Source of the DNA: Kiloniellales bacterium | GTDB lineage: Bacteria > Pseudomonadota > Alphaproteobacteria > Kiloniellales > JAKSBE01 | Assembly: GCA_030067055.1 (NCBI GenBank) | Contig: JASJAL010000203.1 | Coordinates: 1 to 10,721 of the forward strand | Direction: 5' to 3' | Length of the DNA stretch: 10,721 nt | In this document: piece by piece, positions 1 to 10,307 of the stretch | How the letters are laid out: the number at the start of each line of letters is the position of its first letter | Position numbering within the stretch: position 1 is the stretch's first letter | The notes under the pieces: model-generated | Seen by the model: only the letters and a program-made list of their open reading frames with translations | What the model was told of the DNA's origin: nothing | Databases searched by the model: none | Position numbers and translations under genes: made by a program

Positions 1-1649
1 GGGCCCTGAGCTCCGAAGGCCTCGCGCTCGCTGGAGGGGCCAGCCAGGACCATCTGGGTGCTGAGGGTTTCGACCGCGCCGGCCTGCCCCGGATAGGTGC
101 CGGCCGGCACCTTCGCCGGTCTCAGGAAGGAAAAGCGGATCGGCGCGTTACCCTGGCTCCAGCCCTCGACCGAGAGCAGGCGGTAGCGGCCCGTCTCCAT
201 GATGTCGAGCACCGCGCTGTCGCCCAGCGGCGCCATGACGAAGACCGCATCGACCAAGCCTTTCGACATCGCTTCGACCTGGGCCTTGAGGTCGCCGGAC
301 TCCCCGGAGATCAGCTCCACGCCTTCGATGTCGAGCCCGGCCAGCACGTTGCGTGCAATCCGGTCGGAGGCCGAGCCGGCCTCGCCGACGCCGAGGCGCT
401 TGACCTCGGCCAGGGAGGCAGCGCCGCTGCCGGGAACCATGACGTGGGCCAGGCGATAGCCGACCACGCCCAGGGCCTCGGCCGAGCTGGACAGCACGGC
501 GGCCCCGTCCTCCAGCGAGTAGAAGGATTCGGTCCCGACCACGGCAAGGCGCGCCTCGCCGGAGGTCACGAGATCGAGCGGGTTGGCCGCCCGTGCGACA
601 TCGATGCTGCGTTTCGGGAAGACCGCCTTGGAGGCCCGCACCGCACGGCCTGCGGGGCCGGAGAGCGAATCCAGGCCCCCGAGGGCCACGGTCAGGGTCT
701 CGGCCCCGCCGCCGGCCACCTCGGCCGTCTCGTCGACCAGGCCGACATCGGCCAAAAAGGCCAGGGCGACCGCGGGAACGCTGCGGCCTTCCAGCTCGAC
801 CTGGGCGATCAGGTCACGCATCGCGTCCGCGGTGACCTTGCCCTGCAACAGGGTCATGGCGCCAGAGAGCTTGGGGAAGCGGGCCAACGCGTCCTCGCGG
901 ACCAGGGGCGAAGGCTCGTAGACCGGGAAGAAGCCCAGGTCGTCGTCCAGCACCGCCAGGTCGAAGGCGGCGATCTGGGAGTCGGTGCGGAACAGCTCCG
1001 CCACCTTGACCTCGCCGTCGAGGAGCGCCTGGACGATCTTGTCCTTGCCGCCGTCGCCGAGGGCGTAGGACTGGACCTTGCCCTCGGTCAGGCCGTAGCG
1101 GCGGATCAGCGCCCCGAGGCCGTCCAGCGGGCGTTCCAGGAAGTCGGTATCCGTCGCGATCTCCAAGGGGCCCAGGCCCGCCAGATCCGAGATTTTCCCG
1201 ACTCCAAGCGATTGTGCCTCTTCCGGCCGCATGACCAGGACGTAGTCGTTGGAGAAGCCCAGGGATTCGCCCCAGGTCAGCTCCAGCGGACCGTAGAGCG
1301 CACGGACCCGGGCCAGAGCCGCCTTGCCGTCGGCCATGGCCGGCTGGCCGAGATAGACCAGACCGGTGCCGTTGTATTCCGGATAGATGTCGATCTTGCC
1401 CTGCTTCAGAGCCTCGAAGACCTCCGCCGAGCGGCCGTAGGGAATCGCGCGTTGAACCGTGATGCCCTCCCGCTCGGCGAGCTGGGCCAGCATCTCGGCC
1501 ATCAGCATGTTCTCGGTGAAGTTCTTGCCGGCGACACGCAGGACCGGCGGCTCCTCTTCGCAGGCCGCGAGCCCGAAGGCCGAGGCGGCGAGCAGCAGGC
1601 CGGCCAGCGAGCGACGAAGGGACGGCACAGAAAGGCGCTTCATGTCCAT
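1..1649 (-). CDS. Dual-domain substrate-binding lipoprotein: OpuAC-like domain fused to TAXI-like domain (C-terminus cut by window edge)
   Basis: The reading frame is open from ATG 1649 to the window edge, giving about 549 residues without a stop. The N-terminus is a lipoprotein signal (two Arg, a hydrophobic run, lipobox LAAC with Cys30), so the protein should be membrane-anchored and face the periplasm. Residues about 36-305 resemble the OpuAC/ProX family of quaternary-amine binding proteins: they open with VAGKNFTEN and carry DIYPEYNGTG and LGFSNDYVLVM. Residues about 316-549 instead resemble TAXI-family TRAP solute receptors: NPLDLVTSGEARLAVVGT, VPGSGAASLAEVK, GVGEAGSASDRIA, a G-LVDAVFV segment, and VPAGTYPGQ near the end. 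A TAXI domain is usually about 300 residues, so some tens of residues are probably missing. A purine-rich GGGAGGGAGATC precedes the start; ATG 1643 is an alternative. The gene lies 13 bp after the BCCT gene and is probably co-transcribed. The family calls are inferred from motifs; the substrate is unknown. Confidence 0.85.
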   Translation of the reverse strand, partial: MDMKRLSVPSLRRSLAGLLLAASAFGLAACEEEPPVLRVAGKNFTENMLMAEMLAQLAEREGITVQRAIPYGRSAEVFEALKQGKIDIYPEYNGTGLVYLGQPAMADGKAALARVRALYGPLELTWGESLGFSNDYVLVMRPEEAQSLGVGKISDLAGLGPLEIATDTDFLERPLDGLGALIRRYGLTEGKVQSYALGDGGKDKIVQALLDGEVKVAELFRTDSQIAAFDLAVLDDDLGFFPVYEPSPLVREDALARFPKLSGAMTLLQGKVTADAMRDLIAQVELEGRSVPAVALAFLADVGLVDETAEVAGGGAETLTVALGGLDSLSGPAGRAVRASKAVFPKRSIDVARAANPLDLVTSGEARLAVVGTESFYSLEDGAAVLSSSAEALGVVGYRLAHVMVPGSGAASLAEVKRLGVGEAGSASDRIARNVLAGLDIEGVELISGESGDLKAQVEAMSKGLVDAVFVMAPLGDSAVLDIMETGRYRLLSVEGWSQGNAPIRFSFLRPAKVPAGTYPGQAGAVETLSTQMVLAGPSSEREAFGAQG

Positions 1650-1662
1650 GATCTCCCTCCCC

Positions 1663-3234
1663 TCATTCCGCCGGCGTCTTGGTATCGGCCGCTTCCTGGG
1701 CCCGGGCCATGCGTTGCGCCAGCCGCAGGTCGCGCACCTCGGCGCTCTCGTCCTCGCGCAAAGCCCGGAAGAAGCCGACCAGCTGGACGAAGACGATGAA
1801 GGTGAAGGGCACCGCCCCGGTGATCGCCATGGCCTTGGCGACCGAGACGCTGCCGGAGACCAGCACCCCGAAGGTGATCGCCGACATCAGGATGCCCCAG
1901 ATCAGCTTGGTCCGGACGTCGGGGTTGAGGTTGCCGTTGGTGGTCATCATCGAGACCACGAAGGTTCCGGAATCGGCGCTGGTCACCAGGAAGATGAAGA
2001 CCAGGATCACCGCCAGGATGTTCAGCAGGCCAGTCCCCGGGAGATAGCCGAAGAAGGCGTAGAGCGCGGCGCTGACGTCCTCGAAGACGATCTCAGCCAG
2101 GCCGCCGCCGCCGAACATCTCGATGTAGATGGCCGCGCCGCCGAAGACCGAGAACCACAGCATCGAGAACACGGTCGGCGCCACGACGACGCCGAGGACG
2201 AACTCGCGGATGGTCCGGCCACGGCTGATCCGGGCGATGAAGATGCCGACGAAGGGCCCCCAGGCGATCCACCAGATCAGATAGGTCAGGGTCCAGCCGT
2301 GGGTCCAGCCGCGCAGGCTGTCGTCGTAGGAGAAGATCCGGAACGACATGTAGACGAACTGGCTGAGGTAATCGCCGAAGCTGTTGACGAAGGCATCGAG
2401 GATGAAGGTCGTCGGCCCGGCGAAGAGCACCACCAGCATGATCACGATTGCGATGACCATGTTGATGTTCGACAGGATCTTGATGCCCTTGTCGACGCCG
2501 GTGCAGGCGGAGAGCAGGAAGGCGATGGTCATGACGATCAGGATGCCGATCGCCACCGTCAGAGAGCCCGGATCGGTGCCGAAGACCTCGGCCAGGCCCG
2601 AGCGCACCATGATGGTGCCCATGCCCAGCGAGCCCGCGAGGCCAAAGACCACGGCCATGACCGCGACGACGTCGGCGACCATCGAGACCCAGCGGGTGAT
2701 CCGGTCGCCCAGCAGGGGCCGCAGCGAGTACTCGATGGGCGTCGAGACCATCGAGGGCGCGTCCTTGCGGAACACGAAGTAGGCGATGACCAGGGCACAG
2801 ACACCGTAGATCGCCCAGGCGTGAAAGCCCCAGTGCAGGTTGGTGATGGCGAAGGCCGTGCGCGCGGCCTGGGTGGTCAGGCCCTCCTCCCCGGGCGGCG
2901 AATAGAAGTGGTACATCGGCTCCGCCACGCCCCAGAACAGCAGGCCGGAGCCCATGCCGCCGGCGAAGAGCATGGCGATCCAGGAACCGGTCGAGAACTC
3001 CGGCTCGTCGTCGTCGTGGCCGAGCTTGATGTCGCCATAAGGCCCGAGCGCGAGGTAGACGCTCAGCAGCACGAACATCGTGCAGGCCAGCATGAACATC
3101 CAGTCGAGGTACTTGAGTGCGCCGCTGGTCAGCGCGACGGCGGCCCCCGTGACCTGGTCGGGCGCAACCACGCTCCAGATCCCGATGATCGCGCTCAGCG
3201 CCACGGAGACGATGAGAACGGCGTTCTTCGCCAT
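1663..3234 (-). CDS. BCCT-family transporter (betaine/carnitine/choline type)
   Basis: This 523-residue, strongly hydrophobic protein has about twelve predicted membrane segments and matches the usual size of the BCCT family. These are secondary transporters that bring glycine betaine, choline, carnitine or related solutes through the inner membrane, usually with sodium or protons. Diagnostic motifs are FAGGMGSGLLFWGVAEP (residues 90-106, the Gly-rich unwound helix with GMGSG at 93-97), the Trp-rich substrate helix WTLTYLIWWIAWGPFVGIF (Trp321, Trp322, Trp325) followed by IARISRGRTIREF, and TSADSGTF near 418. The N-terminus begins directly in the first helix and the C-terminal tail is short and charged, without the long sensor tail of the osmosensing members. 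A GGGAGGGGG stretch precedes ATG 3234. The binding-protein gene follows after 13 bp. The exact substrate and coupling ion cannot be read from sequence. Confidence 0.95.
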   Translation of the reverse strand: MAKNAVLIVSVALSAIIGIWSVVAPDQVTGAAVALTSGALKYLDWMFMLACTMFVLLSVYLALGPYGDIKLGHDDDEPEFSTGSWIAMLFAGGMGSGLLFWGVAEPMYHFYSPPGEEGLTTQAARTAFAITNLHWGFHAWAIYGVCALVIAYFVFRKDAPSMVSTPIEYSLRPLLGDRITRWVSMVADVVAVMAVVFGLAGSLGMGTIMVRSGLAEVFGTDPGSLTVAIGILIVMTIAFLLSACTGVDKGIKILSNINMVIAIVIMLVVLFAGPTTFILDAFVNSFGDYLSQFVYMSFRIFSYDDSLRGWTHGWTLTYLIWWIAWGPFVGIFIARISRGRTIREFVLGVVVAPTVFSMLWFSVFGGAAIYIEMFGGGGLAEIVFEDVSAALYAFFGYLPGTGLLNILAVILVFIFLVTSADSGTFVVSMMTTNGNLNPDVRTKLIWGILMSAITFGVLVSGSVSVAKAMAITGAVPFTFIVFVQLVGFFRALREDESAEVRDLRLAQRMARAQEAADTKTPAE

Positions 3235-3552: not shown

Positions 3553-3660
3553 GAGCAGGATGACATGAGGTCGGATCGGTCTCAGGTCATCCCGCGCTGA
3601 AATGCTGGAAGAAGGCGGGTTTCGGGCTTGAAGCCGAGCCGGCTCCAAGTCATCCCGCTC
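3553..3660. repeat. Third inverted repeat with gtcatcccgc ends
   Basis: The segment begins gagcaggatgac (3553-3564) and ends gtcatcccgctc (3649-3660), an inverted match of 11 of 12 bases. A further inverted copy, ctcaggtcatcccgc (3581-3595), pairs with 3555-3569 at 13 of 15 positions around an 11-base loop. The right end reaches the first base of the YHS stop codon, so it may act in the 3' end of that transcript, possibly as a terminator. No T-run follows the hairpin. Its unit boundaries are uncertain. Confidence 0.5.
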
Positions 3661-4118
3661 TAGTCGAGGACACCGGGCCAGTTCTGGTCACCCTGGGCGA
3701 TGTTGCCAGGGATGTCCTCTTCCCAGGTCTGCTGGACCGACTTGCTGTAGTTCAGGTAGAGCTTGCCATCGACGATGCGCCAAGCCTCCGGGTCGGTCGA
3801 GGCGGTGTAGCCCTGCGACACTGCCCAGGCGCAGTAACCGCCGTATTGCGGCGCGTAGGCCTCCGGATCGGCTTTGAAGGCGGCCAGGTTGGCCGCGTCG
3901 GCGAAACGCCAGGTGGCGCCTTGCCATTCATGCTCCAGGTCGCCACGGCCCTTCACCGGTTTGCCTTGGGTGAAATAGGCCACCGGGTCATAGCCGCTGA
4001 CCGCCAGACTGCTGAAGGTGCCTGTGTAGATCGAGTCCTTGGCAAGAGCCGGGGTCACGGCGGCCGGCACGGCCGCGGCGACGGCGATCCACAGGGCGAC
4101 GAGCAGGGCACGAGACAT
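3660..4118 (-). CDS. Exported YHS-domain protein
   Basis: This is a 152-residue protein. A hydrophobic N-terminus ending PALA (residues 1-26) is a typical cleavable signal peptide, placing the mature protein in the periplasm. The rest is a YHS-type domain: VSGYDPVAYFTQGKPVKG (39-56), then WRF, FKADPEAYAPQYGGYCAWAV (81-100) with a single Cys96, and DGKLYLNYS (117-125). From family knowledge, YHS domains are small modules often linked to metal-handling proteins, but the biochemical role of these free-standing exported versions is not established. I recall relatives carrying selenocysteine where Cys96 sits here. ATG 4118 was chosen over a longer upstream start because it opens the signal peptide and has AAAGGAG eleven bases ahead. 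It is last of the minus-strand metal/stress genes, 212 bp after the Usp gene, so it may have its own promoter. Confidence 0.9.
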   Translation of the reverse strand: MSRALLVALWIAVAAAVPAAVTPALAKDSIYTGTFSSLAVSGYDPVAYFTQGKPVKGRGDLEHEWQGATWRFADAANLAAFKADPEAYAPQYGGYCAWAVSQGYTASTDPEAWRIVDGKLYLNYSKSVQQTWEEDIPGNIAQGDQNWPGVLD

Positions 4119-4330
4119 GGTGTTGGGTTCTCCTTTAGCTGCAACGAAACGTGCTCGCAAGAGAGGTCGGACCCCGAGCCCCACCGAACAACTCACCACC
4201 GATCAAGAAAACGTCAGCGCAGCACGCAAAGTGTGCCAGCCAACCTCCCGATGCTGAATCTGCACATGCCATAGGGGAAGAGCCGGAACTCGGGACGTCG
4301 GTGCGAAGCCGCCGAAGCCAAGTCCCGGGA

Positions 4331-5362
4331 TCAGCGAACGACCAGGCAAGTGCAGGGCGCGGCGTGATTGACCTTGTAGGAGACGCTGCCCGCCAGCAGG
4401 CTCGCGACCTCGCCGAGACCACGGCTGCCGAGGGCGATCAGGTCGGCCTCTTCGCTCTGCGCGGCGACGAGGATGGCCCGCGCCGGGTCATCGTCGACAA
4501 GCCGAAGCTCGAGCTTCCCGACCGATCTGGCCCTGGCCACGTCGGCGCCGCGATCGAGGATGCGCTCGCCAATCTCCCTGAGTGCGCCCTCTGAGATCGC
4601 CGCCGCAAGCAGGCCCGCGCCCGAGCCCATGTCCACGAGGCGCTCCGCCATCTCCAACTCTTCGCGGGTCTTCGCGCCGAGCCGTTCGGGATCCACGGCG
4701 CTGTGTAGCTGTGCCGCGGTCGCCTCGCGGCGCAGTACATGCAACAGGACGAGCCTGGCGCTGTACTTGGCCGCAAGATCGCATGCCAACTCGACCGATC
4801 TGGTCGCATGGGCGGAGCCGTCGGTCGCCGCGACGATCGTCTTGAGTCCTTGGAATCCCGTCTCGCCGTCCGTCCTGTGCACAGTGACGCAGGAGCAAGG
4901 CGCGAGGTGGAACACCTTGTGCGAGACACTGCCCAGGAACAGGCCTTCCAGCTCGCCATAGCCGCGGCTGCCCATCACGATGAGGTCGGCAGACCTGTGC
5001 TTGGCATGATGGAGGATGCGCTCGCCGGCATCGCCGAAATCGATGACGCCGTCGCTGCTCTTGATTCCTTGCTCCGCCGCCGCCTTCTGAGCCTCGCGAA
5101 GCAGCTTGTGGCCCAGGTACTCCATCACTCGCAGGTGTTCGGAGAGGTGCGGATGGATATCGGTCTCCTCTCCGCGTTGCTCGGCCAGGGAGAGTTCGTC
5201 CGCGGCGGACTCGTAGAGCTCCTGGGGCACGTCGCCGTCGCGCATACCGACATGCAGCAGAATCAGCCGGGCGCGATACGTTTTAGCGAGATCGACGCTG
5301 AGATCGAGCGCGGCCTGCGCATGGCGGGAGCCGTCAACCGGGGTGAGTATGGTCCTGATCAT
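4331..5362 (-). CDS. Universal stress protein with two tandem Usp domains
   Basis: This 343-residue cytoplasmic protein is a duplicated Usp fold. Domain 1 spans about residues 2-163 and domain 2 about 174-343; they open with TILTPVDGS and TIVAATDGS. Both keep the ATP-binding pattern G-2x-G-9x-G-S: GSRGYGELEGLFLGS at 131-145 and GSRGLGEVASLLAGS at 312-326. Each ends in an APC-C motif (155-158 and 335-338). Keeping both patterns suggests an ATP-binding type of Usp; such proteins aid survival under stress, but the partner is unknown. ATG 5362 fits the family start (MIRTILTPVDGS) although its ribosome site is weak; a TTG at 5410 would add 16 residues that do not look like a domain. It lies 79 bp after the NicO gene on the same strand and may share its transcript. 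Confidence 0.92.
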   Translation of the reverse strand: MIRTILTPVDGSRHAQAALDLSVDLAKTYRARLILLHVGMRDGDVPQELYESAADELSLAEQRGEETDIHPHLSEHLRVMEYLGHKLLREAQKAAAEQGIKSSDGVIDFGDAGERILHHAKHRSADLIVMGSRGYGELEGLFLGSVSHKVFHLAPCSCVTVHRTDGETGFQGLKTIVAATDGSAHATRSVELACDLAAKYSARLVLLHVLRREATAAQLHSAVDPERLGAKTREELEMAERLVDMGSGAGLLAAAISEGALREIGERILDRGADVARARSVGKLELRLVDDDPARAILVAAQSEEADLIALGSRGLGEVASLLAGSVSYKVNHAAPCTCLVVR

Positions 5363-5441
5363 GCCTATATCGAGCGCTTGGTCCCCGTCGGCCGCATTGA
5401 TCCGCGTCAAGATCGCGGTGGCGGCCCATATCGCGGTTCGC

Positions 5442-6461
5442 TCAGATTGTCGCGACCGGCTGGTTCAGGGCGAGGTAGAGGAAGAAGGCCCCGAAGACGC
5501 AGATCGCAAGGGACCCGAGGACCGCCAGGCCGCGCCCGATGCGGTCTTCCCAAACCGAGTCTTGCCCGGCAAGGCGCACCGCCAGCTTGCGAGAGGTCAC
5601 GGCCAGAATTCCAAGGGCCGCGACCGTCATGGCCGTGCCCAGAGCCATGGCGAAGGTCGCCCCGACTCCGGCCAGGAAGATACCCTGGGCAAGGGTGAAC
5701 AGGAGGATGATCACCGCCCCGCTGCAGGGCCGTATCCCGACCGAAATCACCATGGGGGCGAGGCCGCCGAGGAGGCCGCGTGCGGCCTGCGGCGGCCCCT
5801 TGGCAGCGGTCTGGACAGCGCTATGTTCGTGCCCGTGATCCTGGTGGCCGTGATCATGATGGCCGTGATCATGATGGCCGTGGTCGTGGCCGCAGCCGAG
5901 CTTGCCGCGCAGGGCGGCGACCAGCATCCAGAGGCCGAGCAGGATGATCAGCCCGTAGCTGGCGATCTCCAGCAGCTGCACCTTGGCGGCGGCCTCACGC
6001 CGGGTTAGGTCGAGCACCAGCGCCAGGAATCCGACCAGGGCGATGGCCGAAAAGGCCTGCACCAGGGCTGTCAGGAAGGAGAGCTGGATGCCCCGCCGGA
6101 CCCGGCTCTCCTGGGCCAGCAGGTAGGAAGAGATCACCACCTTGCCGTGGCCCGGGCCGGCGGCGTGCACCACGCCATAGAGGAAAGAGAAAAACAGCAG
6201 GGTGGCCAGCGGCATGAGAGAGTCGCCGCTCTTGAGATCGCGCACCAGGCCGGCGAGATCGCGCTGCAGCTCCTGCTGCAGCCGGGCGATCTCGAAGCGT
6301 GTCCGCTGCCAAAATCCGATCTCTTCCGGCGCCGCAGACTCGGCCTCGGCCGGCGGCAGACCGGGCAGGCTCTGTGCGCCCGCCGGCGCCAAGACCGAGG
6401 CCGCCATAGCCAGCAGCAGAATCAGCAGAGAAAGCGCCAAGTGGCGCAGGTTAGGAGACAT
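5442..6461 (-). CDS. NicO/RcnA-family nickel/cobalt (or zinc) transporter
   Basis: This 339-residue inner-membrane protein starts with a signal-like hydrophobic segment (about 8-28). An amphipathic periplasmic stretch (about 48-78) follows, then some six membrane segments. The family motif HAAGPGHGK (99-107) lies in the first of them, and SVGIRPCSGAVIILLF (240-255) in the second half of the protein. Between the halves is a His-rich loop of four H/Q-DHGH units (about 192-211), a likely metal-binding region. The family moves Ni2+ or Co2+, usually as efflux; the pairing with DUF1007 is a recurring one whose metal I cannot tell from sequence. ATG 6461 overlaps the DUF1007 stop by 11 bases, suggesting translational coupling. 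ATG 6479 is an equally possible start adding six residues; neither has a clear ribosome site. The Usp gene follows after 79 bp. Confidence 0.92.
   Translation of the reverse strand: MSPNLRHLALSLLILLLAMAASVLAPAGAQSLPGLPPAEAESAAPEEIGFWQRTRFEIARLQQELQRDLAGLVRDLKSGDSLMPLATLLFFSFLYGVVHAAGPGHGKVVISSYLLAQESRVRRGIQLSFLTALVQAFSAIALVGFLALVLDLTRREAAAKVQLLEIASYGLIILLGLWMLVAALRGKLGCGHDHGHHDHGHHDHGHQDHGHEHSAVQTAAKGPPQAARGLLGGLAPMVISVGIRPCSGAVIILLFTLAQGIFLAGVGATFAMALGTAMTVAALGILAVTSRKLAVRLAGQDSVWEDRIGRGLAVLGSLAICVFGAFFLYLALNQPVATI
5831..5890 (-). repeat. Four tandem 15-bp units encoding the His-rich loop
   Basis: Four 15-base units are seen on the plus strand. The second and third (5846-5860 and 5861-5875, ggccgtgatcatgat) are identical; the first (5831-5845) and fourth (5876-5890) are diverged. 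On the minus strand they encode the His-Asp-His-Gly units of the NicO transporter, so gain or loss of a unit would stay in frame. Confidence 0.85.
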
Positions 6462-7098
6462 CGCAGCCGATCTGGACATAGAGGGGATTGACCATCCCGA
6501 AATAGATCGGGTTCAGCTTGTCTTCCACCAAGGCCGGCTGGCAGTTGACAGGCCAGTTGCCGGTGACCCGCAACTTGCGCGGAGACCCGACGTTGAGGTC
6601 GATGTAATAGGTCTCGTCGTAGAAGCCGACTCCGAAGGTGGTCTCCCGGGGATCGAGGTTCTCTGGCAACGGCACATCGAAGGCGTACTGCAGCCGGTTG
6701 TCCTTCATCTCGGCAGTGAAGTTCTCTACCACCTCGACCTTGAGGTTGTCTGGCAGCAGATCGCCAATTTTGAGGTGGGTAAAGTAGCTGTAGTCCTTCA
6801 AACCCTCGTGGCTATTCTCCAGGACTGCCAGTTCTTCCCGGTCCAATTGCTTGTTGCCGTTGGCGTCGAAGTCCTGAACCGCGAAGGCGCTGTAGTACTC
6901 GTCGAAGAGCCAAATCACCCGCAGGCCCTCCAGAACCTTACCCTGGAAGCGCAGCTCCACCGATACGTCGATCCAGATGTGAGGGTGTGCACGCGGGCTA
7001 TCGAAGGGCGGCAACAGCACCGCCAGCCCGAACAACGCAGCGAGCCAAAGGCGTCCTCGGAGAGCGGTCCTGCGATCGAAGCTTTTTGGTAGTGGCAT
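6451..7098 (-). CDS. DUF1007-family periplasmic protein
   Basis: This is a 215-residue protein with an N-terminal hydrophobic export segment (about 17-31) followed by HPHIWIDV (38-45), the hallmark opening of DUF1007 proteins. Further family features are WLFDEYYS (63-70), DYSYFT (102-107) and YDETYYID (160-167). Residues 78-89 form an EF-hand-like loop (Asp78, Asn80, Asn82, Gln84, Asp86, Glu89) that could bind calcium or another divalent ion. The molecular role of DUF1007 is not known; it commonly travels with NicO-type transporters, as here, which suggests metal capture or delivery in the periplasm. ATG 7098 is preceded by GGAGGAG and gives the family-typical length; a longer frame upstream lacks family character. 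It is first of the minus-strand group and overlaps the NicO gene. Confidence 0.92.
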   Translation of the reverse strand: MPLPKSFDRRTALRGRLWLAALFGLAVLLPPFDSPRAHPHIWIDVSVELRFQGKVLEGLRVIWLFDEYYSAFAVQDFDANGNKQLDREELAVLENSHEGLKDYSYFTHLKIGDLLPDNLKVEVVENFTAEMKDNRLQYAFDVPLPENLDPRETTFGVGFYDETYYIDLNVGSPRKLRVTGNWPVNCQPALVEDKLNPIYFGMVNPLYVQIGCDVS

Positions 7099-7137
7099 TA
7101 CTCCTCCGGACACCGGACACGCGCCAGAATTTCCGGA

Positions 7138-7166
7138 AAGATAAGGCGCGGGATCGGATTGTCGAG
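7138..7166 (-). promoter_or_regulatory. Possible promoter for the DUF1007-NicO genes
   Basis: On the minus strand, CTCGAC (7161-7166) and TTATCT (7139-7144) are 16 bases apart, about 40 bases before the DUF1007 start. They resemble the -35 and -10 elements of alphaproteobacterial housekeeping promoters. A perfect palindrome, tttccggaaa (7130-7139), touches the -10 element and could be an operator. This is a visual match only. Confidence 0.3.
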
Positions 7167-7252
7167 TGACTTCTGAAGGTCCGGGCCTCCGGGATCGCCG
7201 CTTGCGGCAGATCAACGTGGTGGCAAAGCGATCTGGTCAATCTACGGCGGAA

Positions 7253-7281
7253 TTGGCATCTTGCCGGGAAGAAGCTAATGG
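7253..7281 (+). promoter_or_regulatory. Possible promoter for the PCuAC gene
   Basis: TTGGCA (7253-7258) and TAATGG (7276-7281) are separated by 17 bases on the plus strand in the gap between divergent genes, about 115 bases before the PCuAC start. The -10 match is only fair. No recognisable metal-regulator box was seen in the 297-base gap. Confidence 0.28.
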
Positions 7282-7395
7282 CTAGAAAATTCGAGCAACA
7301 GCACCTGACCGGACCAAGCTACAGATCCTCGTGATCGCCATTCCTTCACTCGGACGGCACCGACGTCCCGATTCAAAGCCTAGAAGAGGAAATCG

Positions 7396-7890
7396 ATGCT
7401 TCGATACATCTCTCTGTCCGCCGCCCTGCTTGCGGCCGCCTTGGTCTCCAACCTGGCCGCCGCGGCCGACTACACCCTTGGCGATCTTGCCATCCACAAG
7501 CCCTGGGCGCGCGCCTCCATCGGCCAGGCCCAGGCCGGCGCCGCCTACGTCACCGTCATGAACAAGGGCTCCCTGCCCGACCGGCTGATCGCCGTCGAGG
7601 GCGAGGTCGCGAACCGGGTCGAACTGCACACGCATATGTTGGAAGACGGGGTCATGAAGATGCGGCCGGTCAAGGCGATCGAGGTCGCGCCCGGCGAGCC
7701 GGCGGTGCTCAAGCCCGGTGGCCTTCACATCATGCTGTTGGGCCTGAAGGCGCCCCTGGTGAAGGGACAGAGCTTCCCGTTGACCCTGGTCTTCGAGAAG
7801 GCCGGCCGGGTCGAGATCGAGGTGCCGATCGGCGAGGCCACGGCCATGGAGCACCATATGGACCATAAGGGCCACAAGAAGGGTTCCTGA
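7396..7890 (+). CDS. PCuAC-family periplasmic copper chaperone
   Basis: This is a 164-residue protein with a signal peptide (about 1-24, ending AAAA) and one PCuAC (formerly DUF461) domain. The Cu(I)-binding pattern of the family, H-x10-M-x21-H-x-M, is complete: His78, Met89, His111 and Met113, in HTHM and PGGLHIMLLGLK. Early HKPWARAS and AGAAYVTVMN are also typical. The C-terminal tail MEHHMDHKGHKK adds further His and Met that could bind metal. Known members deliver copper to the CuA site of cytochrome oxidase or store periplasmic copper; no Sco-like partner is visible here. AGAGGA sits five bases ahead of ATG 7396. It is the only plus-strand gene, divergent from DUF1007-NicO and convergent with the phosphatase gene. 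Confidence 0.95.
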   Translation: MLRYISLSAALLAAALVSNLAAAADYTLGDLAIHKPWARASIGQAQAGAAYVTVMNKGSLPDRLIAVEGEVANRVELHTHMLEDGVMKMRPVKAIEVAPGEPAVLKPGGLHIMLLGLKAPLVKGQSFPLTLVFEKAGRVEIEVPIGEATAMEHHMDHKGHKKGS

Positions 7891-7902
7891 GCCTCTGGTC
7901 CC

Positions 7903-7929
7903 GAGGCGTCCCGCCGCGCGGGGCGCCTC
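7903..7929. terminator. GC-rich hairpin between convergent genes
   Basis: Bases 7903-7914 pair with 7918-7929 to give a 12-bp stem with one G-T wobble and a three-base loop. It sits 12 bases after the PCuAC stop and 11 bases before the phosphatase stop on the other strand, the right place for a shared terminator. Neither side has a true T-run, so termination strength is uncertain. Confidence 0.55.
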
Positions 7930-7940
7930 ACTTAAACAGG

Positions 7941-8384
7941 TCAGACCACAGGCTTGATGTCGCTGCCGAAGCGTTCCTGGATCCGGCGCAGCAGCTGGTC
8001 CCGGATCTCGCGGTAGGCCTGCAGACGGGTCTCGCGGCTGCCCTCGATCAGGCTGGGGTCGAGCACGCGCCAGAACTCGACGTCGCAGGCCATCGTCCGG
8101 GTCAGCTCCACCGCCCGGTGCTGGGCTTCCGGGGAAAGCGAAACGATCAGATCGTAGGAGGTGTCCTCCAGCTGGTCGAAGGACTTGGAGCGGTGCCTGG
8201 AAACGTCGATGCCGATCTCCTCCATGACTGCGACCGCGAAGGGATCTATCTCGCCAGCGCGCACGCCGACCGAATCGACGTAGACCCTGTGGCCCAGCAG
8301 GTGCTTGAGCAGCCCCTCGGCCATTGGCGAGCGGATCGAGTTCTGGCTGCAGGCGAAGAGAACGCTGTCGGGAAAGTCAGCCAA
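7941..8384 (-). CDS. Low-molecular-weight protein-tyrosine-phosphatase-like protein
   Basis: This 147-residue cytoplasmic protein has the fold signature of low-molecular-weight phosphotyrosine phosphatases and related arsenate reductases. The catalytic loop C-x5-R-S is at residues 12-19 (Cys12, Arg18, in FACSQNSIRSPMAEG) and the general acid is probably Asp109 of VLDPSLIEG. Members remove phosphate from phosphotyrosine, or reduce arsenate when further Cys residues are present; only Cys100 is seen besides Cys12, so phosphatase activity is more likely. The start is TTG 8384, since no ATG or GTG lies between the upstream stop and the catalytic loop. That start is six bases after the UPF0262 TAG and in the same frame, with no strong ribosome site, which points to translational coupling. 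The pairing with hisD and UPF0262 is conserved in alphaproteobacteria as I recall it; the role there is unknown. Confidence 0.9.
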   Translation of the reverse strand: MADFPDSVLFACSQNSIRSPMAEGLLKHLLGHRVYVDSVGVRAGEIDPFAVAVMEEIGIDVSRHRSKSFDQLEDTSYDLIVSLSPEAQHRAVELTRTMACDVEFWRVLDPSLIEGSRETRLQAYREIRDQLLRRIQERFGSDIKPVV

Positions 8385-9002: not shown

Positions 9003-10307
9003 CTAGGTCTCTACGTCAGGATCCAGACGGATCGCCACCGAGCGGGCGTGGGCGCGCAGGCCTTCGGCCTCGGCCAGGCGGACGGCGGTCGGCCCGAGTT
9101 GCCGCAGGCCGTCGCGATCACAGGCGATGATCGAAGAGCGCTTCATGAAGTCCAGCGCCGAGAGGCCCGAGGAGAAGCGCGCCGAGCGGTCGGTCGGCAG
9201 CACATGGTTCGGCCCGGCCAAGTAGTCGCCTATGGCCTCGGGCGTGTAGCGGCCCAGAAAAATAGCGCCGGCGTTACGAATCCCGCCGGCCAGGGCCTCC
9301 GGCTCCGCGACGGCGAGTTCAAGGTGCTCCGGCGCGACCCGGTCGACCAGGGCCGGTGCCTCGCTGAGGTCGCGGAGCCGAATCACCGCGCCATGGGTCT
9401 CCCAGCTGGCCGCGGCGATATTCGCCTTGGGCAGGCTGCGCAGTTGCTCGGCGACCGCGACCTCGACCGCCGCGGCGAATTCGCCATCGTCGGTCAGAAG
9501 GATCGACTGCGCTCCCGTGTCATGCTCGGCCTGGGCCAGGAGATCGGCGGCGATCCAGTCTGGCCGATTGGCGCCATCGGCGACCACCAGCACTTCCGAG
9601 GGCCCGGCGATGGAGTCGATACCGACGGTGCCGAAGACCTGGCGCTTGGCCTCGGCAACGTAGGCATTGCCGGGGCCGACGATCTTGTCGACCCGCGGGA
9701 TCGTGGCCGTGCCGAAGGCCAGTGCGGCTACCGCCTGGGCGCCGCCGATCCGATAGATTTCGGTCACGCCAGCAAGGCGCGCGGCGGCCAGGACCAGGGC
9801 GTTCACCTCGCCGCGCGGCGTCGGCACGGTCATGGCGATGCGCGGCACCCCGGCGACCTGAGCCGGAATCGCGTTCATCAGCACCGACGAGGGATAGGCG
9901 GCCAGGCCGCCAGGAACGTAGAGTCCGACCGCGCCGATGGCGGTCCAGCGGTGCCCCAGGCGCAGCCCCGCGGAATCGGTATAATCCAGGTCTTCCGGCA
10001 GCTGGCGGCGGTGGAAATCGCCGATCCGCTGGGCGGCGAGGCCCAAGGCCTCCAGGTCTGCCGGATCGCAGGCCGCCGCTGCCGCCTCGATCTCTTTGGG
10101 GTCGAAGCGCAAGGTCTCCGGGGTCAGGCTGAGCGCGTCGAACCTCTCGGTGAGCGCGATGATTGCGGCATCGCCCTCGTCGCGGATCCGGGCCAGGATC
10201 GCGGCCACGTCGGCACCGACGTCGGCCTGGGATTCGCGCTTGGCCTCGAGGAAACGGGCAAAGGCGGCCTCGAACCCGGGATCGCTGGTGTCCAACCTAT
10301 GCGGCAT
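9003..10307 (-). CDS. hisD: Histidinol dehydrogenase
   Basis: HisD oxidises L-histidinol to L-histidine in two NAD-dependent steps, the last reactions of histidine synthesis, in the cytoplasm. The 434-residue length is normal. The family signature around [16 protein letters not shown] (206-221) and [13 protein letters not shown] (232-244) is clear. Catalytic Glu327 and His328 lie in VAPEHLEL, and the zinc ligands known from the E. coli enzyme correspond to Gln259, His262 (LLAQAEHD), Asp361 and His420. YVPGG (130-134) and GPNHVLPT (365-372) also match. All key residues are present, so the enzyme should be active. ATG 10307 has AGGAGG six bases ahead, lying inside hisG, and overlaps the hisG stop by 11 bases, so the two genes form one coupled unit. 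Confidence 0.98.

Follow-up and report, generated by a model that had tools for sequence, protein, structure and literature searches.

An OpuAC-TAXI fusion lipoprotein encoded beside a BCCT-family transporter: a candidate binding-protein-dependent BCCT system

Binding proteins of the OpuAC type feed ABC importers, and those of the TAXI type feed TRAP transporters; transporters of the BCCT family are able to work alone, without binding proteins. According to the main text of the 2025 paper that describes TAXI-GltS, only the TRAP and TTT families had previously been known as secondary transporters with a soluble binding protein (PMC12344293). In that system, BP0403/GltS of Bordetella pertussis, a lipid-anchored TAXI-domain protein is encoded directly downstream of a normally solo secondary transporter; its TAXI domain binds the substrate glutamate, and its N-terminal domain is not a binding protein (PMC12344293). 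The systems of this kind reported so far (TRAP, TTT, and TAXI-GltS) are known or presumed elevators, with GltS modelled as one, and the same text asks whether an elevator mechanism is a precondition for binding-protein dependence, a question that further classes would test (PMC12344293).

The locus described here resembles TAXI-GltS in that a predicted lipid-anchored protein with a TAXI-type domain is encoded directly downstream of a secondary transporter of a normally solo kind, and also in that the coupling of the two is deduced mainly from their genes, there (PMC12344293) as here. It differs in having an OpuAC domain with a matching pocket, an extra C-terminal transmembrane helix, and, as its partner, a BCCT protein. 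Two traits of the TRAP, TTT, and TAXI-GltS class can be compared: a binding-protein gene conserved beside the transporter gene was found in 23 of 23 testable loci; however, the membrane component, which is of the elevator type in that class, is by profile a BCCT protein. The BCCT family has the LeuT fold, as set out in the texts of PMC13270143 and PMC11708041, and for this reason the operon would offer a direct test of the elevator question; if the system proposed below is real, binding-protein dependence needs no elevator transporter. Both the folds and the principle are known, and it is the pairing that appears to be unreported. Among the matches listed from open-access full texts, we found neither an OpuAC-TAXI fusion nor a binding-protein-BCCT system, which agrees with the earlier note, which knew of no description of the architecture. 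The terms BCCT, OpuAC, and betaine are absent from the main text of PMC12344293.

The window, by which we mean the whole 10,721-nucleotide stretch that was analysed, cuts the fusion gene at its edge; the gene is a single open frame on the minus strand, running from position 1649 down to the window start (Table 1). Its full length is known from a homologue, P0002, which has 649 aa and is identical to the window protein across the shared part. Pfam profiles matched the window protein above their cut-offs for OpuAC at residues 37 to 300 (152 bits) and for NMT1_3 at residues 403 to 536 (43.1 bits), and in the structure model both halves form complete binding-protein folds. Beyond the window, the full-length copy has a predicted transmembrane helix at residues 604 to 626, near the C terminus, with basic residues after it.

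Table 1. Coordinates of the fusion gene, its parts, and the adjoining BCCT gene in the window
Feature	Position	Strand	Basis or remark
OpuAC-TAXI fusion lipoprotein gene	3..1649	-	ORF and Pfam OpuAC/NMT1_3; incomplete at the window edge, with 549 of the 649 aa
Predicted lipoprotein signal, residues 1-30; lipobox LAAC, Cys30	1560..1649	-	
Predicted OpuBC/ProX-type betaine-binding domain, residues 36-306 (complete fold 33-309)	732..1544	-	
Predicted flexible linker, residues 307-315	705..731	-	pLDDT <50 at 310-312 in structure model
TAXI-type domain, residues 316-549 of 316-594 inside the window (complete fold 315-594)	3..704	-	
Gap of 13 bp, BCCT stop codon to fusion start codon	1650..1662	-	
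BCCT-family transporter gene, 523 aa, directly upstream of the fusion, same direction	1663..3234	-	PF02028, TIGR00842

That one frame joins an OpuAC-type to a TAXI-type protein was the central claim of the earlier note, and it is upheld by the single ORF, by the Pfam matches to both domains, and by the 649-aa P0002. The short linker that the note had placed at the junction is likewise seen and is predicted to be flexible (Table 1), and the structure model shows two complete binding folds. The protein is a true fusion in which, on sequence and prediction, a lipid-anchor signal, an OpuBC/ProX-type domain, a TAXI-type domain, and a C-terminal transmembrane helix follow one another. Residue C30 is invariant in the 73 sequences of alignment A2. 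Of the 114 listed fusion homologues with at least 600 aa, 113 have the lipobox pattern and 113 have the C-terminal hydrophobic stretch; the fusion is probably attached to the membrane through both of its ends. The one homologue without the C-terminal stretch, P0026, has a C-terminal end that looks frame-shifted. A misread frame or an assembly chimera was rejected because several contigs encode near-identical full-length proteins and because the anchors are common to 113 of 114 homologues. A phage origin was also considered; two scans of viral contigs gave pattern matches and no relative.

A survey of genomes for the same architecture, as the earlier note had proposed, did find it elsewhere, and the note proved incomplete: the fusion is one of a family of many members and is paired with a BCCT gene. 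The homologue set comprised 296 proteins at an E value of ≤0.001, of which 120 were listed; precomputed domains placed OpuAC in 120 of the 120 and NMT1_3 also in 107. A fresh Pfam scan recovered both domains in all 20 members of alignment A1 at an E value of ≤0.01. The NMT1_3 profile fails in the divergent members L034 and L026 and falls below its cut-off in L013; the divergent members still align over their whole length. Full-length fusions were found phylum-wide in at least 2 of 398 genomes (one being the search centre), in at least 16 of 61 genomes of the order of G001 (the centre included, with one fusion cut by a contig edge and one divergent), and, in further surveys, in at least 4 of 195 genomes and at least 2 of 385 genomes (the centre included in both) and at least 1 of 368 genomes. 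These frequencies are lower bounds because the E limits were strict (1e-60 or 1e-80) and few candidates were scored per genome. An Rfam search for 16S rRNA in 20 genomes gave a match in one, G021, which is Gammaproteobacteria-like, with 88 to 90% 16S identity to the listed gammas. The genome G1083 came from a search of the class of G021, and an order-level search around the gamma-class match found the fusion in 1 of 3 genomes, the one already known.

We examined 24 fusion loci: the window, 21 genomes (20 plus G1083), and two plasmids, one from Paracoccus aminovorans and one from Martelella sp. NC18; Martelella NC20, which gave a matching hit, is not among the 24. Every one of the 23 loci that have upstream sequence (the window, 19 genomes, the gamma-class genome, and the two plasmids) carries BCCT sequence immediately upstream of the fusion and in the same orientation. 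In the 24th, G429, the fusion starts at the contig edge, and no BCCT gene was found anywhere in the 2.9-Mb assembly. Among the 23 loci outside the window, 22 are from Alphaproteobacteria or from genomes placed there by the searches, and relatives among them are not independent. The pairing covers the window's own branch and divergent ones with 29 to 42% identity to P0002 (L013, L021 to L024, L026, L033 to L035, L037, L038, and L040). At ≥50% identity, the loci examined represent 50 of the 120 listed homologues and none of the 64 from P0058 to P0121, the most populous part of the list. In loci with a callable start codon, the gap between the two genes is mostly 10 to 20 bp; the genes overlap by 4 bp in Martelella (as annotated) and in L066 (by ORF calling). 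Flanking genes vary between distant loci, and the BCCT-fusion pair, usually with a universal stress protein (USP) gene next, persists. On P. aminovorans plasmid IV (NZ_LN832562; L037, positions 6449 to 7953), the BCCT match spans two frames, so that this copy looks interrupted; it is absent from the gene table, in which the fusion and USP genes are annotated.

Two controls lacked the pairing. None of 10 stand-alone OpuAC loci (L014 to L016, L027 to L032, and L036, from nine genomes), which came from the same searches as the fusions, had a BCCT match within about 1.5 kb at an E value of 1e-5. Likewise, none of 24 unlinked BCCT paralogues of the fusion-bearing genomes had an OpuAC or TAXI match at an E value of 1e-4 in its flanks, which were taken as 2.5 kb or less where the contig ended; BCCT matches that were split (five) or weak (three, <25 bits) are not part of this control. 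A BCCT-receptor fusion in a single chain was not seen among the 18 matches listed, all of which have 647 to 651 aa. The gene pairing suggests a shared function, rather than ligand hand-over as such, and we consider it likely that the fusion and the BCCT protein are functional partners.

In a tree of 46 BCCT proteins, 20 of the 22 linked proteins fall in one clade (support, 100/99), and the other two, from L026 and L040, group with four unlinked paralogues in a sister clade. The linkage label changes 2 times on this tree versus about 15.5 times when shuffled, a contrast that related rows inflate. Long branches are flagged in the tree, those of the linked L026, L038, and L040 proteins among them. 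Four unlinked paralogues (L059, L061, L062, and L063) lie within the wider linked clade and have no binding-protein neighbour, which indicates that the lineage can do without the receptor; a secondary loss of that neighbour is possible.

The window BCCT protein matched PF02028 (563 bits) and TIGR00842 (455 bits, over a cut-off of 407.55). It scored below the NCBIfam cut-offs for named carriers of betaine (542.2 of 650 bits), choline (BetT; 404.2 of 695 bits), and carnitine (239.6 of 541 bits); it is accordingly assigned to the BCCT family and to no specific substrate. With BetP, TmaT, BetT, and DddT it shares the family, the G-x-G-x-G motif, and the aromatic box; it differs from these four transporters in being encoded with a binding protein. 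The box (W135, W140, Y143, W321, W322, and W325) and the G-x-G-x-G motif are present in 22 of 22 linked BCCT proteins, and the box is also kept in most unlinked paralogues. It matches aromatic residues of TmaT, four of which are tied to quaternary-ammonium carriers only, as put in the text of PMC11708041. The BetP-type Na1 site is not kept: V195 and L199 of the window protein stand where BetP has its Na1 threonines, T246 and T250, and the linked proteins have V or I at the first position and L or V at the second, with Thr at neither in 22 of 22. In the unlinked paralogues, Thr occurs at the T246 position in 18 of 24 and at the T250 position in 1 of 24; only the loss of T246 therefore distinguishes the linked proteins, as T250 is also missing in 23 of the 24 unlinked ones. 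DddT is described as lacking both threonines too (PMC13270143), and so they are not required for BCCT membership. Judging from these residues, the ion coupling of the linked BCCT proteins may differ from that of BetP.

The OpuAC half shares its two-lobed fold and betaine pocket with the OpuBC, ProX, OsmF, and EgtUC proteins (cluster F-III), although those serve ABC importers, whereas here a TAXI fold and a transmembrane helix are fused to the domain and no ABC gene adjoins it in the window. The match to the NCBIfam OsmF equivalog was far under its cut-off (109.4 of 400 bits). In the account of EgtUC in PMC9732360, the ligand cage is formed by Y341, Y419, Y443, and F293, with N339 at its base, and the carboxylate ligands are K242, T296, and R379; AfProX has Y63 for F293, F107 for Y337, and a Phe for G244, and AfProX-type proteins are said to use four Tyr in the cage. 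By our own local numbering offsets (199 to 206), which do not derive from a printed alignment, Y341, Y419, Y443, F293, and N339 correspond to Y136, F220, Y244, Y92, and N134 of the fusion, and K242, T296, R379, Y337, and G244 correspond to K42, T95, R173, F132, and F44. Seven of these ten pocket residues (K42, F44, Y92, T95, Y136, R173, and Y244) are identical in 73 of 73 sequences, F132 in 72, and N134 in 69; at residue 220, 70 sequences have Phe and 3 have Tyr. The pocket is AfProX-like, with one departure, Phe220 usually standing for Tyr, and it predicts a betaine with a carboxylate as the ligand. In L026, the most divergent member, K42, F44, N134, R173, and F220 are lost and the BCCT neighbour is kept; Martelella (L038) has changes at F44, N134, and F220. 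The L026 fusion (L069, positions 5186 to 7033, genome G455), which has neither the Lys nor the Arg for the carboxylate and still stands beside a BCCT gene, perhaps binds another ligand.

We favour the explanation that the fusion, tethered to the inner membrane, is a binding-protein subunit of the BCCT transporter encoded next to it, and regard this as fairly probable. In such a system, the OpuAC domain would capture, in the periplasm, a betaine-like solute (a trimethylammonium or sulfonium compound that also has a carboxylate, glycine betaine for instance) and pass it to the BCCT protein, which would then import it by ion coupling. The lipid anchor and the transmembrane helix would tether the receptor, the TAXI half would act mainly as a docking or spacing module or would bind a second, regulatory ligand, and the USP encoded next in most loci would act on the system from the cytosol. 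That ligand passes directly from the fusion to the BCCT protein we hold to be an even chance; the caution stems mainly from the established ability of BCCT proteins to act alone, and we also count against delivery that the linked BCCT protein keeps a complete substrate site of its own, as do most unlinked paralogues. The scheme as a whole, a three-gene, binding-protein-dependent LeuT-fold BCCT system in which an OpuAC-TAXI receptor with two anchors delivers a betaine-like solute to a subfamily without the BetP Na1 site, with the USP as the third gene, is offered tentatively, at slightly under even chances. If it is correct, not every gene annotated as encoding a "glycine betaine ABC transporter substrate-binding protein" works with an ABC importer, and the system would describe a way in which betaine-like osmolytes are scavenged.

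The main rival, which we think unlikely although it deserves weight, is that the fusion is a regulator responsive to a ligand or to osmolarity: bound to betaine, it would gate or stabilise the BCCT protein through the transmembrane helix and deliver no substrate. The intact substrate site of the BCCT protein and a receptor probably held in the membrane at both ends would both suit this role, and so would the USP gene, whose position suggests regulation. In 20 of the 23 loci outside the window, a USP match begins 4 to 402 bp past the fusion stop codon, 19 of these 20 within 71 bp; G455, Martelella, and G1083 showed none after the fusion. The USP gene annotated in P. aminovorans and the end of the fusion gene overlap by 23 bp, and the longest-frame ORFs overlap likewise in L066 and L067. 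A USP gene beside a binding-protein-dependent osmolyte transporter has a precedent in TeaD and TeaABC. Against a regulator, the OpuAC half, whose betaine pocket is complete, is the most strongly conserved part, which would fit a capture protein, and no Pfam signalling domain was found in the window part of the protein or in P0002.

Less probable again is that the fusion serves an ABC importer (of the OpuB type) or a TRAP transporter encoded elsewhere and is merely cotranscribed with the BCCT gene in an osmolyte program. The classical partners of its two domain types are what speaks for this; they have to be set against a BCCT pairing that recurs in all 23 testable loci, a gamma-class one included, and against the C-terminal transmembrane helix, which would be unexpected of a mobile receptor. 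Pfam scans of 10 window proteins found no ABC permease or ATPase and no TRAP membrane component. In L004, a cluster that by eye resembles an ABC importer of the peptide type, with a binding protein of its own, begins at about 12.5 kb on the other strand; the fusion there ends at 9929.

The TAXI half is the less conserved part of the protein: columns conserved at ≥90% number 81 of 271 in the OpuAC domain, 11 of 85 at residues 316 to 400, and 11 of 134 at residues 403 to 536. It matched TIGR02122 (TAXI) at residues 406 to 536 with 55.3 bits against a cut-off of 84.35, and three other members scored 69.0, 39.7, and 38.1 bits. A profile of 11 TAXI halves matched the structures 1us4 and 8u79 over the second part only, the N-lobe being unalignable by sequence. 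The half resembles the TAXI proteins of TRAP transporters (1us4, 8u79, and 8s4j) in its fold and in part of its sequence, and differs from them in scoring below the NCBIfam cut-off, in the sequence of its N-lobe, and in having a BCCT rather than a TRAP neighbour. Its closest fold matches include TAXI structures with bound glutamate. The text of PMC11574862 names Tyr45 and Gln93 as key residues of the glutamate site of VcGluP and reports that 78% of TAXI sequences have Y45 and 54% have Q93. The equivalents of these residues could not be located by sequence, and for that reason glutamate binding by the TAXI half can only tentatively be called unlikely. We infer that the loop at about residues 319 to 340 is the counterpart of the Tyr45 loop; it has no Tyr in the 10 rows printed, one of which has a Tyr at residue 344.

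These features bear on the two readings offered in the earlier note. That the protein is a two-ligand receptor, with a betaine bound by OpuAC and glutamate or another carboxylate by TAXI, each on behalf of the BCCT system, is in our judgement very improbable and so far unsupported. The two complete folds of the model and the glutamate-bound structures among the closest fold matches of the TAXI half favour it. Against it, the betaine pocket is kept but conservation is lower in the TAXI half (11 of 134 columns at residues 403 to 536 against 81 of 271 in OpuAC), the TAXI N-lobe and solved TAXI proteins do not match in sequence, and the presumed counterpart of the VcGluP Tyr45 loop (PMC11574862) holds no Tyr in the 10 rows printed. 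The note's other option, that one half has lost its binding role, would be the likelier of the two, given a conserved OpuAC pocket and a more variable TAXI half.

Upstream of the BCCT gene, the window encodes a YHS-domain protein (3660 to 4199, minus strand) and a tandem universal stress protein (4331 to 5410, minus strand); L001 and L002 have matches to the latter, with 78.5% and 83.5% identity, that are likewise upstream of their BCCT genes. An ORF for a NicO-type metal transporter with a His-rich loop follows (5442 to 6479, minus strand), and its start overlaps the end of a DUF1007 gene (6451 to 7215, minus strand); the two are probably a metal-transport pair. A PCu(A)C copper chaperone is encoded at 7396 to 7890 on the plus strand.
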